Below, in pieces: positions 10,927 to 45,209 of a DNA stretch of 64,000 nt. Origin of the DNA: Aequorivita sp. (GTDB lineage Bacteria; Bacteroidota; Bacteroidia; Flavobacteriales; Flavobacteriaceae); contig JAGXGE010000002.1 of assembly GCA_024637015.1 (NCBI GenBank), positions 1 through 64,000 of the forward strand. The letters run 5' to 3'. Each line of letters starts with the position of its first letter. The stretch's first letter is position 1. The notes below the pieces were generated by a model. It was not told where the DNA came from, did not search any database, and saw nothing but the letters and a program-made list of their open reading frames with translations. Made by a program: the position numbers and the translations under genes.

Positions 10927-10986
10927 TTAGATGGTTAGATGGTTAGATGGTTAGATGGTTAGATGGTTAGATGGTTAGATGGTTAG
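10927..10986 (+). repeat. Octamer tandem array TTAGATGG
   Basis: About 7.5 head-to-tail perfect copies of TTAGATGG lie between the ABM gene and gldF. There is no coding reading. A second, heptameric array follows 80 bp later, so this single intergenic gap carries two different arrays. Confidence 0.95.
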
Positions 10987-42024: not shown

Positions 42025-42624
42025 TTATTTTTTAAATGGTTCCGCAGAAGCATGCCCACCTTGTGTAATCCCCTCCTTTTTAAAAACTTTTTTTACGGTT
42101 TTAAAAAATATTTTTAAATCAAGCCAAAAGGACTGGTGTTCAACATACCATACATCATATTCAAATTTCTGTTGCCAACTAATAGCGTTACGCCCGTTTA
42201 CTTGTGCCCAGCCAGTTATTCCAGGCCTTACGTCATGTCGCTGTTTTTGGGTTTCATTATAAAGAGGAAGGTATTCTGGCAATAAAGGTCTTGGCCCTAC
42301 AAAGCTCATATCTCCCATTAAAACATTTAGCAGTTGTGGCAGTTCATCCAGAGATGTAGAGCGAATAAACTTCCCCATAGTAGTAAGTCTTTCAGAGTCT
42401 GGTCGTAAATTTCCTTTAGTATCCTTTTTATCATTCATTGTTTTAAACTTTACAATGGTAAATATCCGTTCGTATTTCCCCGGTCTTTTTTGGAAAAAAA
42501 AAGGGGAGCCTCCATTTGAAAACCCTAATATAACAGATACCAACAAGATAATTGGACTTGTAATTAGCAATAAAATAAGAGCCCCAATAAAATCGAAGAA
42601 TGGTTTTAGTATGTCTTGGTACAT
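42025..42624 (-). CDS. Initiating phosphoglycosyltransferase (PglC/WcaJ type)
   Basis: This 199-residue membrane enzyme has one N-terminal re-entrant helix ([26 protein letters not shown]), then [57 protein letters not shown] and [18 protein letters not shown]. It moves a phospho-sugar, possibly diacetylbacillosamine, from its UDP carrier to undecaprenyl phosphate. Its length fits the minimal PglC type. It is 61 bp upstream of the PglD-like gene. Its C-terminal HASAEPFKK tail is a feature of many flavobacterial copies. Confidence 0.9.
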
Positions 42625-42701
42625 TTACAGGATATTTTCTTAAGGTTTCAAAATTACAGAAAAGTAATGACTGGTGGGGTGCAATTTATATTTGTTGTTT
42701 A

Positions 42702-43084
42702 CCCCCAGCCCCTAAAGCGGTGGAACAAAACTCAGCAATATTTGAAGGTACCTTTAGGGGTGGGGCAGATGAAACTTTACCCCCAGCCCCTAAAGGGGAG
42801 AAAGAAAACTCAGCAATATTTTAAGGCACCCTTTAGGGCTGGGGGCAGATGAAGCTTTACTCCAAGCCCCTAAAGGGGAGAAAGAAAACTCAGCAATATT
42901 TGAAGATAACCTTTAGGGGCGGGGTCAGATGAAACTTTACCCCCAGCCCCTAAAGGGGAGGAACAAAACTCAGCAATATTTGAAGGTACCCTTTGGGGGC
43001 GGGGCAGTGAAACTTTACCCCCGACCCCTAAAGGGGAGAAAGAAAACTTAGTAATATTTATTGGCTTCCTTTAGGGTTGGGGTC
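42702..43084. repeat. Block A of 79-bp hairpin repeats (5 units)
   Basis: Units begin near 42702, 42780, 42860, 42940 and 43018 (spacing 78-80 bp). Each has a left arm CCCCCAGCCCCTAAAGGGG, a conserved A-rich core (AAAACTCAGCAATATTTGAA), a right arm CCCTTTAGGGGCGGGG and a linker (CAGATGAAACTTTA). The arms are complementary over about 16 bp, so every unit can fold into a long hairpin with a ~30-nt loop. The last unit contains the stop codon of the DUF559 gene. The core is conserved between units, so this is not a CRISPR array. Confidence 0.95.
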
Positions 43085-43484
43085 GTTCTTGTGAGCTATT
43101 TATAAAAGATTTTATTTCAGCTAATACTTTTTGTATATCGTTTTCTATTTCCTCATTCTTGAATCTAATAATTGAAACATTTTGAGACTTCAATAAATCA
43201 GTTCGTTCTTTATCTTTCAGCTTTTGCGCTTTATCATTGTGATATTCTCCATCCAATTCGATTATTAATCTTAATTCGTGACAATAAAAATCTGCAATGA
43301 ATAAATGTATCGGATGCTGCCTTCTAAACTTGAAGCCTCCCAATTGTTTGTTTTTTAGGAATTCCCACAATTTCGTCTCGGCAGACGTCATATTATTCCG
43401 AAGTATTTTTGCAAAAGCAAAAATACTTGGTGGTGCGCCTTTATGCATACCAGTATCCTGATGGTTATTTTTAAAAGAAGACAT
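43071..43484 (-). CDS. DUF559 domain (Vsr-like) endonuclease
   Basis: This 137-residue protein (125 if it starts at the conserved MHKGAPPS, 43448) has the DUF559 core: RNNMTSAETKLWEFLKNKQ, then FKFRRQHPIHLFIADFYCHE and LIIELDGEYHNDKAQKLKDKERTDLL, with the Asp and Glu-x-Asp-Gly/His residues expected of the Vsr/PD-(D/E)xK-like nuclease fold. Its cellular role is unknown. The last residues (RPQP) and the stop are encoded by a 79-bp repeat unit, and six more units lie on its upstream side. A perfect 12-bp inverted repeat sits in its coding sequence at 43401-43428. Confidence 0.85.
   Translation of the reverse strand: MSSFKNNHQDTGMHKGAPPSIFAFAKILRNNMTSAETKLWEFLKNKQLGGFKFRRQHPIHLFIADFYCHELRLIIELDGEYHNDKAQKLKDKERTDLLKSQNVSIIRFKNEEIENDIQKVLAEIKSFINSSQERPQP
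43401..43428. repeat. Perfect inverted repeat inside the DUF559 gene
   Basis: Arms AAGTATTTTTGC (43401-43412) and GCAAAAATACTT (43417-43428) are exactly complementary around an AAAA loop. It encodes part of APPSIFAFAKILRNN and would make a 12-bp hairpin near the 5' end of the mRNA. Confidence 0.95.
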
Positions 43485-43543
43485 CTCGTAATATATTAAT
43501 AAAATTACACTCGATTGATAAACCTTTAAATATAATAAATTTT

Positions 43544-43578
43544 GGGTTTTGCCCCTTGCCCCTTGCTCTTAGCTCCTT
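43544..43578 (+). repeat. Short heptamer-like repeat GCCCCTT / GCTCTTA
   Basis: TTGCCCCTTGCCCCTTGCTC followed by TTAGCTCCTTA looks like a diverged relative of the GGCTCTT heptamer array at 28755-28845. It directly precedes block B of the hairpin repeats. Confidence 0.5.
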
Positions 43579-44045
43579 ACCCCCGGCCCCTATAGGGGGG
43601 GAACAAAACTCAGTAATATCTGAAGGCACCCTTTAGGGCTGGGGTCTGATGAAACTTTGCCCCCCGGCCCCTAGCCCCCAGCCCCTAAAGGGGAGAAATA
43701 AAACCCAGCAATATTTGTAGGCACCCTTTAGGGACGGGGGCAGATGGAACTTTACCCCCGGCCCCTAAAGGGGAGAAATAAAACCCAGCAATATTTGTAG
43801 GCACCCTTTAGGGCTGGGGTCTGATGAAGCTTTACTCCAAGCCCCTAAAGAGGAGAAATAAAACTCAGTAAAAACTGAAGGCACCCTTTAGGGTTGGGGT
43901 CTGATGAAACTTACCCCCGGCCCCTAAAGGGGAGAAACAAAACTCAGTAAAAATTGAAGGCACCCTTTAGGGCTGGGGTCTGATGAAACTTACCCCAAGC
44001 CCCTAAAGGGGAGAAATAAAACTCAGTAAAAACTAAAGGGGCAGG
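43579..44045. repeat. Block B of 79-bp hairpin repeats (6 units)
   Basis: Units begin near 43579, 43660, 43754, 43834, 43913 and 43992, the last one truncated by the end of a glycosyltransferase gene. Arms and core match block A in the same orientation; the core here is AAACTCAGTAAAAACTGAAG or AAACCCAGCAATATTTGTAG. One unit has a partly duplicated left arm (near 43660-43685). Block B and block A flank the DUF559 gene. Confidence 0.95.
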
Positions 44046-45209
44046 CTATAATACATCATTGACGCATTTTCGGTATTCTGCCAGTAAAGCTTCCCAAACC
44101 TCTTTTCTATTGTATTTTTCAACAATGATTTTCCGTGCCGAAGATTTTAAGCTGGAATGCATCAATGCTTTTGTAGCCATTTGTTCCATTGCCTCATAAA
44201 GAGCTTCCTCATTTTTTGGTGGTACAATAAGGCCGTTGACGCCTTGTTGAACAATTTCATTGCAACCGTTAATATCCGTTACAATTGATGGCAAGCCCAT
44301 AGCTCCAGCTTGCATAACCACATTTGGAAACCCTTCGCGATAACTTGGAAATACCAGTGCATTGGCAATAGCCAAATAGGGACGAACATCGTTTTGATAG
44401 CCTATAGAGTATATATTGGGGTTCTCTCCTATGCTTTTTAAAGACTCAGGCGATAAGGGATCCAAATCATTTTCAAAAGGGCCCACTAAGAGAAGTGAAA
44501 TGTTGCTTTTTGATTTGGAAAGTTTTGAAAAAGCAGCAATCAATTCGTTGATGCCTTTATCTTTTACCAAGCGTCCCACAAAAATGAATAGAAAATTGTT
44601 TTGAGGAATTTTCCATTTGTCCCGCAATGAGATTTTATCACTCTCTGAAAAATTGGTTGGGTTAAAATGATCGGTATCAATCCCATTGCTACTACCGTTT
44701 GCTATTATAGAGAGTTTTGAAGATTTTGTAAACTTTTCAGAAATAATAAAATCATATAATCCCTGTGAATTGGGATATACCCTTGTAGCAAAACGATACG
44801 TTAGTTTTTCAACAAAATCCAAAATCGTTCTTTTAAACCCCGTTGCTTCCATCAACGGAAGGCCGGCAACTGTATGTAGCCTATTTGGAATCCCTGCAAG
44901 CCAAGCCGCCATCATCCCCACAATACCAGCCTTTGGCGTATGGGTATGAACTATGGATGGCTTTTCTTTTTTTAAAAACTGGTATAATCTAAAGACCGCA
45001 ACAATATCTTTTATCGGAGTGATTTTTCTTGTGAGTTCCAAGGGAAAAAAACGCACCCCCTCCTTCTTGGCATAACTTTCCAATCTTTCGGGCTCTGCTG
45101 AAATGGCAACTATTTCAAAATAGTCTTTCATAAAAGCCAGTTGCCCTTCAAGGAGTTTTTCCAGCGAAAGCGGGATGGTGGTAATCCGTATTAAGCCTTT
45201 CCGTTCCAT
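44046..45209 (-). CDS. Glycosyltransferase family 4 (PglA-like)
   Basis: This 387-residue GT-B enzyme has HTHTPKAGIVGMMAAWLAGI near residue 90, LFIFVGRLVKDKGINELIAAF near 210 and the C-terminal donor-site block YREGFPNVVMQAGAMGLPSIV, in which the second Glu of the usual E-x7-E motif is Gln. Such enzymes often add a sugar to bacillosamine-type acceptors; specificity is not known. It overlaps the next glycosyltransferase gene by 19 bp. The stop is followed at once by block B of the hairpin repeats. Confidence 0.85.
   Translation of the reverse strand: MERKGLIRITTIPLSLEKLLEGQLAFMKDYFEIVAISAEPERLESYAKKEGVRFFPLELTRKITPIKDIVAVFRLYQFLKKEKPSIVHTHTPKAGIVGMMAAWLAGIPNRLHTVAGLPLMEATGFKRTILDFVEKLTYRFATRVYPNSQGLYDFIISEKFTKSSKLSIIANGSSNGIDTDHFNPTNFSESDKISLRDKWKIPQNNFLFIFVGRLVKDKGINELIAAFSKLSKSKSNISLLLVGPFENDLDPLSPESLKSIGENPNIYSIGYQNDVRPYLAIANALVFPSYREGFPNVVMQAGAMGLPSIVTDINGCNEIVQQGVNGLIVPPKNEEALYEAMEQMATKALMHSSLKSSARKIIVEKYNRKEVWEALLAEYRKCVNDVL

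Follow-up and report, generated by a model that had tools for sequence, protein, structure and literature searches.

Several described systems come close to the locus analyzed here. In REP/RAYT systems (REPtrons), as at this locus, a small enzyme gene is flanked by its own class of hairpins, gene-free copies of the hairpins are dispersed, and presence is patchy. RAYT is an HUH tyrosine (Y1) transposase and its REPs bear a GTAG tag; REPs with a CGTC tag are, according to the same source, without a dedicated transposase (PMC3733652). Intrastrand triplex motifs (TM; PIT/boxC in E. coli) were characterized by Holder et al. in 2015 as abundant intergenic repeats of many bacteria that are linked with instability (PMC4666352). 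That account presents the E. coli motifs as having no mobility genes around them, and a term search of its main text did not yield the words DUF, endonuclease, nuclease or Vsr. EDxHD homing endonucleases are represented by I-Bth0305I, a multi-domain enzyme (PMC3943268), and a DUF559 gene has already been assigned to this family (PMC9403480). Lastly, a DUF559 domain, the fold of which is related to Vsr according to the literature, is present in the Caulobacter protein VsrA, which is required for a DNA-damage response in cells without a cytosine methyltransferase (PMC12907096).

The window, i.e. the whole 64-kb stretch of Aequorivita DNA that was analyzed, contains an island in which one DUF559 gene lies between two blocks of inverted-repeat units. 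Its features are the following.

42665..44063, no strand: whole island (repeats and gene); at the orthologous site, the congener G097 lacks all of it (G097 alignment to 42500-42664 and 44064-44300, sequence read)
42702..42768, plus strand: unit 1, left block
42780..42847, plus strand: unit 2, left block (folding tested too)
42860..42927, plus strand: unit 3, left block (folding tested too)
42940..43007, plus strand: unit 4, left block (folding tested too)
43018..43085, plus strand: unit 5, left block, carrying the last four codons and the stop codon of the DUF559 gene
43071..43484, minus strand: DUF559 (PF04480) Vsr/EDxHD-type nuclease gene, 137 aa, N-terminus MHKGAP (profile match, AlphaFold2 model)
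43580..43647, plus strand: unit 6, right block
43660..43674, plus strand: partial unit (stub) of 15 bp (95-bp period)
43675..43742, plus strand: unit 7, right block
43755..43822, plus strand: unit 8, right block (folding tested too)
43835..43902, plus strand: unit 9, right block
43914..43981, plus strand: unit 10, right block (folding tested too)
43993..44039, plus strand: unit 11, truncated, without right arm (array end by tandem-repeat listing)

The eleven units form a block at positions 42702-44039 in a single orientation, with five on the left side of the gene and six on the right. The spacing is 78-80 bp, with a single step of 95 bp that contains the 15-bp stub. In the 10 complete units, the arms pair over 11-17 positions with 11-16 matches and enclose a conserved, AT-rich stretch of about 32 nt. 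The codons of the gene that fall within unit 5 encode RPQP. The initial annotation had described eleven 79-bp units in two equally oriented blocks of five and six, complementary arms around a conserved AT-rich loop, and a gene end merged with a repeat; this description was borne out, the unit size being about right. The inter-arm segments are conserved (mean similarity within the array 0.80) and there are no unique spacers, which speaks against a CRISPR array, as had been argued from the constant loop. The constant loops, the presence of arrays on either side and the dispersed gene-free units speak against both a CRISPR array and a tandem-repeat RNA antitoxin (type III toxin-antitoxin system). 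When the folding of five in-register units as DNA was compared with 200 shuffles each, 0, 3, 0, 10 and 7 shuffles folded equally well; for a sixth segment, which was excised out of register, 177 of 200 shuffles were equally good. When the 3.22-Mb genome was scanned with 30 nt taken from the left half-unit, allowing up to 3 mismatches, there were 11 matches, all of them in the window array, and the reversed control had none. The shorter core CCCTTTAGGGNNGGGG has 3 further genomic copies, a pair at C15:245395-245466 and a single one at C35:80130. The window additionally harbors several arrays of 7-8-bp tandem repeats, at positions 10927, 11068, 27027, 28648, 28754, 31262, 32623 and 40587.

The gene between the blocks had been proposed to encode a DUF559 nuclease, and the protein indeed matches the PF04480 profile with E=1.7e-35 and 121.7 bits (gathering cut-off 20.6), this being the single domain found in the profile search. 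In the AlphaFold2 model (mean pLDDT 86.4), helices surround a central set of strands. DUF559 profiles also match the PDB entries 3hrl and 3r3p, "mobile intron protein" (E=2e-5 for 3r3p); 3r3p we take to be I-Bth0305I. The residues E36, D65, H82 and D91 are invariant among 43 sequences, and by our own assignment they probably represent the E, D, H and D positions of the EDxHD motif. The residues E..W/DF..E.DG..H..D are present in 75 of 79 cross-phylum DUF559 domains, a count that leaves out L146, the length of which is not a multiple of three. The window protein thus shares a related nuclease domain and conserved residues with EDxHD homing endonucleases; in contrast to the multi-domain I-Bth0305I, one domain was found in it, its gene is flanked by repeats, and no intron or intein was seen there.

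The initial annotation had drawn an analogy with REP elements and RAYT transposases. Its anatomy holds and is wider than proposed, DUF559 genes being found among repeats in many phyla, but the Y1 enzyme and the GTAG tag are absent. Instead, the enzyme is a PD-(D/E)XK/EDxHD-type nuclease, no PF01797 gene lies between the window repeats, and among the window units GTAG is not constant, as it is present in 2 of the 11, within the loop. Typical DUF559 units also differ from REPs by a mirrored third arm. The best reading is a REP/RAYT-like partnership with an unrelated Vsr/EDxHD-type nuclease; the locus would work like a REP/RAYT system, but it is not a member, because the enzyme is unrelated and the tag is absent.

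The genome of the window contains four PF04480 matches. Three are standalone DUF559 genes, each in a different repeat; the two besides the window gene (L002 and L003) are each flanked on both sides by their own, different hairpin repeat. The fourth match (L004) is weak and Vsr-like, and no such repeats were seen there by eye. DUF559 proteins might be Vsr-like mismatch-repair enzymes, the repeats being irrelevant; in Caulobacter, the function of VsrA is linked to that of a solitary cytosine methyltransferase (PMC12907096). However, the Vsr-like match is the one without such repeats, the window-type gene is, unlike Vsr and VsrA, patchily present and bound to repeats, and the repeats, the patchy presence and the matching of units to protein subclades would all be left unexplained, so that we regard a pure repair role as highly improbable.

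Flanking repeats were scored with a sequence-free test, which asks whether the DNA upstream of a standalone gene is repeated downstream (threshold score of at least 25). In 80 sampled genomes of the window's family, direct repeats on both sides reached the threshold at 26 of 38 standalone DUF559 loci, and inverted repeats at one. The cross-locus null was 0.7%, and in a sliding control along the window 2 of 233 positions scored. For 3 of the 26 loci (L041, L049 and L058), the repeats were diverged and looked coding; L041 contains two DUF559 genes, 1392 bp apart and with equal score. None of 12 fused DUF559 loci reached the score. PF05635, a second standalone family that served as the one control family, had flanking direct repeats at 0 of 30 loci in the same 80 genomes. 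Simple chance was rejected on the basis of the null and the control family. In a cross-phylum set, 24 of 79 loci scored at least 25 for direct repeats and 5 for inverted repeats (null 0.5%); the query by which the 80 loci of this set were gathered came from a single DUF559 group. The positives include cyanobacteria (L135, L154), Ignavibacteriae (L142), Brocadia (L173), Atribacteria (L144), LCP-89 (L148) and Syntrophaceae (L162). Among further loci of the window's phylum, 5 of 10 scored, 6 of 16 having been left out at contig edges. Three rows were dropped, L064 because it is the same place as L041, and L061 and L132 because of a short flank. An Oscillospiraceae DUF559 gene (L168) has inverted instead of direct flanking repeats, with a score of 63.

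Gene and repeats are mostly intergenic and variable, and both might simply pile up in tolerant, unstable intergenic DNA. Such passive co-location is very unlikely in our view: the control family yielded 0 of 30 in the same genomes, albeit as a single family, the density of the unit motif is about 30-fold lower beyond 1 kb, DUF559 genes with hairpins also occur in conserved neighborhoods, and the matching of subclades and units would remain without explanation. The conserved neighborhoods, sufB/sufC, a GatB/YqeY-domain gene/dnaG and paaD/paaZ, were observed at L285, L292 and L295.

The hairpins beside DUF559 genes have a common architecture. Close to the gene (within 150 bp), the 80 cross-phylum loci contain 4.3-4.5 hairpins per kb in which the 5' arm is pyrimidine-rich, versus 0.03-0.04 per kb at a distance of 2-3 kb; the opposite type, with a purine-rich 5' arm, was encountered once. 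A perfect 8-bp stem with the pyrimidine arm first is present at 63 of the 79 cross-phylum loci, at 20 of the 38 loci of the family and at 0 of 30 control loci. Records from a plasmid collection (16 loci from Alphaproteobacteria, Neisseria, Photobacterium, Deinococcus, cyanobacteria and E. coli) had a pyrimidine-arm hairpin within 500 bp at 14 DUF559 loci, L296 and L298 being negative. A third, purine-rich arm follows the hairpin at 104 of 108 loci that have such a hairpin. With A or T accepted opposite A, this arm fits the mirror of the purine arm of its own locus at a mean of 7.66 of 8 positions, and perfectly at 80 loci. When the arms were shuffled between loci, the fit dropped to 6.37 of 8, and the observed value was reached in 0 of 2000 permutations. 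A plain direct copy of the purine arm fitted less well than the mirror (6.63), slightly above its own shuffle (6.27). Clustering of near-identical genes left 100 loci, 79 of them perfect, with a mirror fit of 7.70 of 8 versus 6.37 when permuted, and again 0 of 2000 permutations. Thus, the third arm covaries with the mirrored purine arm.

The bases of the third arm opposite A were T in 144, A in 137 and others in 34 cases, and opposite G they were G in 540 of 558 cases (99 of 103 loci used; as the register was fixed on G positions, the G fraction is partly by construction). Tolerance of A or T opposite A fits the triad rules of DNA purine-motif triplexes. Because the third arm mirrors the purine arm and does not complement it, with A or T opposite A, it carries the code of a purine-motif intrastrand triplex. 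The typical unit consists of a pyrimidine arm, a loop, a purine arm, a spacer and, as the third arm, a mirrored version of the second. With this design, a single strand of the unit can fold as a hairpin, and it could form an intrastrand triple helix.

This code also bears on the idea that the units function at the RNA level, where they would terminate or insulate transcription or serve in the processing of the nuclease mRNA. Hairpins do lie near both ends of the gene, and a dispersed unit (L305) and the L002 cassette come, by eye, after terminator-like hairpins. Yet a mirrored arm with A or T opposite A fits a DNA triplex, gene-free dispersed units exist, and earlier work, as cited in PMC4666352, saw no promoter or terminator activity of such motifs. 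We therefore give an RNA role very little credence.

A strict Y-R-R motif (stem of 6), which was defined after the loci had been seen, is present within 500 bp at 121 of 135 DUF559 loci from many phyla, at 115 of 129 after clustering of near-identical genes, and at 0 of 30 PF05635 loci. Its density is 2.46 per kb near DUF559 genes versus 0.080 per kb beyond 1 kb. The adjacency of gene and units, a rarity of which had been named in the initial annotation as evidence against a partnership, is therefore the common case. The polarity of the units relative to the gene has a weak bias (41 versus 20 loci, 74 undecided). Most units beside DUF559 genes fit the published intrastrand-triplex motifs (PMC4666352) in design; both share the Y-R-R arrangement, intergenic location, occurrence in many bacteria and a link with genomic instability, but here a DUF559 gene lies among the units. 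The initial annotation had known of no described function for such a pair. For the pair this stands, inasmuch as no paper tying DUF559 to repeats was found within the searched part of the open-licence PMC papers; the units, in contrast, mostly have the published design.

CGTC-tagged REPs had been considered as the DUF559 unit, an idea from the flank of L033 and PMC3733652. In the published form it was not supported: a tagged hairpin of that type was found within 1 kb at 0 of the 16 plasmid-collection loci, in a test that demanded a stem starting with A or G. By eye, CGTC lies directly before pyrimidine stems at L290 (Sinorhizobium meliloti) and L294 (Neisseria gonorrhoeae), a possible looser link to CGTC-tagged REPs.

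The window unit itself is a short-stem variant and not a strict triplex motif. No window unit passes the strict definition with a stem of 6, and with a stem of 5, 7 pass in the block and none outside it. The unit is built of two inverted CCC(C)-TTTA-(G)GGG-NN-GGGG cores about 32 nt apart. The pattern C3-5 TTTA G3-5 N1-3 G4-5, which was defined after the loci had been seen, occurs 13 times in the block and is absent from the remainder of the window and from 99 kb of control loci. By an N-terminal motif, M[HFWY]xGA[PT], and not by a tree, the window protein is assigned to a subclade. This core is present within 700 bp at 10 of 10 subclade loci versus 1 of 125 other DUF559 loci, and in the family set alone at 10 of 10 versus 0 of 29. 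Thus, the unit changes with the nuclease group, even within one genome (L001 versus L002 and L003). The subclade of the window uses a short form of the unit.

Co-occurrence was also quantified for whole genomes, with a generic hairpin pattern that misses the window's own unit type; whether a gene was standalone, whether Y1 was present and how many copies were adjacent was taken from tables manually, and the broken DUF559 gene of G013 was counted as absent. In the family, the pattern is present in 17 of the 23 genomes that have a standalone DUF559 gene versus 6 of the 57 that do not (p=5.6e-8), and the reversed pattern occurs in 1 of 23 versus 7 of 57. When copies within 2 kb of the gene were excluded, the values, counted by hand, were 12 of 23 versus 6 of 57 (p=1.5e-4). 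For 118 genomes of the phylum, 20 of 37 with a standalone gene contrast with 16 of 81 without (p=4e-4). Among the exceptions without a standalone gene, G190, G140, G111 and G180 have pattern counts of 20, 15, 9 and 9, respectively, including overlapping matches at one hairpin. The outcome is hence mixed for the concern, voiced at the outset, that units could be common in genomes without DUF559: gene-bearing genomes are enriched, but 6 of 57 family and 16 of 81 phylum genomes have hairpins without the gene. With respect to enzymes, the pattern was found in 9 of 12 of the 80 family genomes that have DUF559 without Y1_Tnp, in 2 of 10 with Y1_Tnp without DUF559, in 8 of 11 with both and in 4 of 47 with neither. 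Hairpin presence tracks DUF559 and not Y1_Tnp, which does not support a RAYT (Y1_Tnp, RAYT/IS200-type) as the responsible enzyme.

Gain and loss were followed in 28 genomes of the genus. At the window locus, G097 has the same two neighbors with a gap of 23 bp, without unit and without gene. G101 has the gene with arrays on both sides and its own loop sequence, and G102 has a related gene with arrays at a place without a match to the window's neighbors. The inter-arm similarity is 0.60 between the window and G101 and 0.38 between the window and G102, lower than the 0.80 within the window array, although the G101 array is heterogeneous within itself (0.57); arrays are thus species-specific. At the L002 site, G098 and G099 are without the entire unit-gene-unit cassette. 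At the L003 site, three congeners are gene-free, with no unit in G086, one in G080 and two adjacent units in G098. Consequently, gene-free orthologous sites exist for 3 of 3 loci examined, with 0, 1 or 2 units at one of them. The unit-free sites and differing unit numbers that the initial annotation had suggested looking for in relatives were both found, together with dispersed copies.

Dispersed hairpins in G038, G033, G016 and G007 share stretches of about 25 to 396 bp, with roughly 75-100% identity, with the units flanking DUF559 in the same genome. In G007 this is one stretch of 39 bp; copies at contig ends may be neighbors in the assembly, and some of those in G038, close to the end of a contig (L181), could be remnants split off from the gene-flanking array. 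In G077 the dispersed hairpins were compared only among themselves. The core CCCTTTAGGGNNGGGG has 9-24 copies in each of the 6 genomes of the genus with a located subclade gene, and 0-11 copies in the other 22, 15 of which have none (reversed control: 0 in all 28). As the gene was located by DNA similarity (plus L054), the class without it may hide diverged copies. In G091, the region C14:383131-444478 (L301-L304) contains 11 window-type cores in 62 kb, no DUF559 gene being found in the four stretches; these are orphan units. In G102, a second array of window-type cores (C56:7604-9124, L300) is located roughly 4 kb away from the DUF559 array, and the 9 kb inspected there contain no further DUF559 gene.

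The main rival explanation starts from the L003 site. There, the congeners with one or two units are without the gene; in the window's own genome, the gene together with more units lies between two such units, as if a free-standing homing-type endonuclease had invaded older host repeats. The repeats would then be a mere landing site, unstable by themselves through replication slippage or triplex-induced breaks, and triplex repeats have been reported to be unstable on their own (PMC4666352). In the window's family, DUF559 domains also occur in frame inside MetH, RecG and LeuRS and fused to HisD and HemD (L026, L052, L016, L018 and L019; 5 of 12 long-frame cases scanned), with the nuclease motif retained in 9 of the 12 long-frame domains; insertion inside host proteins could be expected of a mobile nuclease. 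However, both the gene and the units are missing from some congeners at the two other loci, the unit type follows the protein subclade, and the gene is enriched in hairpin-bearing genomes even when copies within 2 kb are disregarded. We thus consider invasion of host repeats unlikely, though less so than the other alternatives.

We favor as the probable explanation that the island is a two-part mobile element, consisting of a standalone nuclease of the Vsr/EDxHD type (DUF559) and the structure-forming repeat that is its cognate unit. It has the look of a mobile genetic element of a kind not described before. The matching of genes and units and the enzyme class suggest that the nuclease may recognize its own unit type and nick or break the DNA there. 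The gene-free sites, the array turnover and the dispersed copies suggest that repair could then copy units in tandem and spread them without the gene; occasionally, the whole unit-gene-unit cassette would be copied to a new intergenic site. The association and its wide distribution, the correspondence of genes and units, the covariation of the mirrored arms, the presence or absence of gene and units at orthologous sites, the species-specific arrays and the dispersed copies were demonstrated; binding and cleavage of the units and a role of the enzyme in copying or moving them are inferred. For a more general proposal, we see the chances as evenly balanced: standalone DUF559 proteins may be the missing dedicated enzymes of triplex repeats and form a phylum-spanning mobile class, in which each subclade recognizes its own unit and drives the copying of it, the widespread orphan triplex repeats, among them those of E. 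coli, Neisseria and cyanobacteria, being non-autonomous offspring.

Triplex-forming intergenic repeats are abundant in bacteria, and the DUF559 family is a concrete candidate for moving them. That the unit changes with the nuclease subclade makes the question of mobility testable in vitro. If the proposal is true, a role would be suggested for a common domain that is classed as of unknown function, REP-like systems would be joined by a second enzyme class, unrelated to the first, and DUF559 would stand out as a nuclease that may sense the structure of DNA.

The comparisons at the L002 and L003 sites revealed overlaps of 4-8 bp in T-rich sequence and no clear target-site duplication. Near the latter gene (L003:2051-2131) lies another dispersed repeat of about 80 bp, which starts with GTAGGAAAAAAGGG, has dozens of copies across the congeners and is not a hairpin unit.
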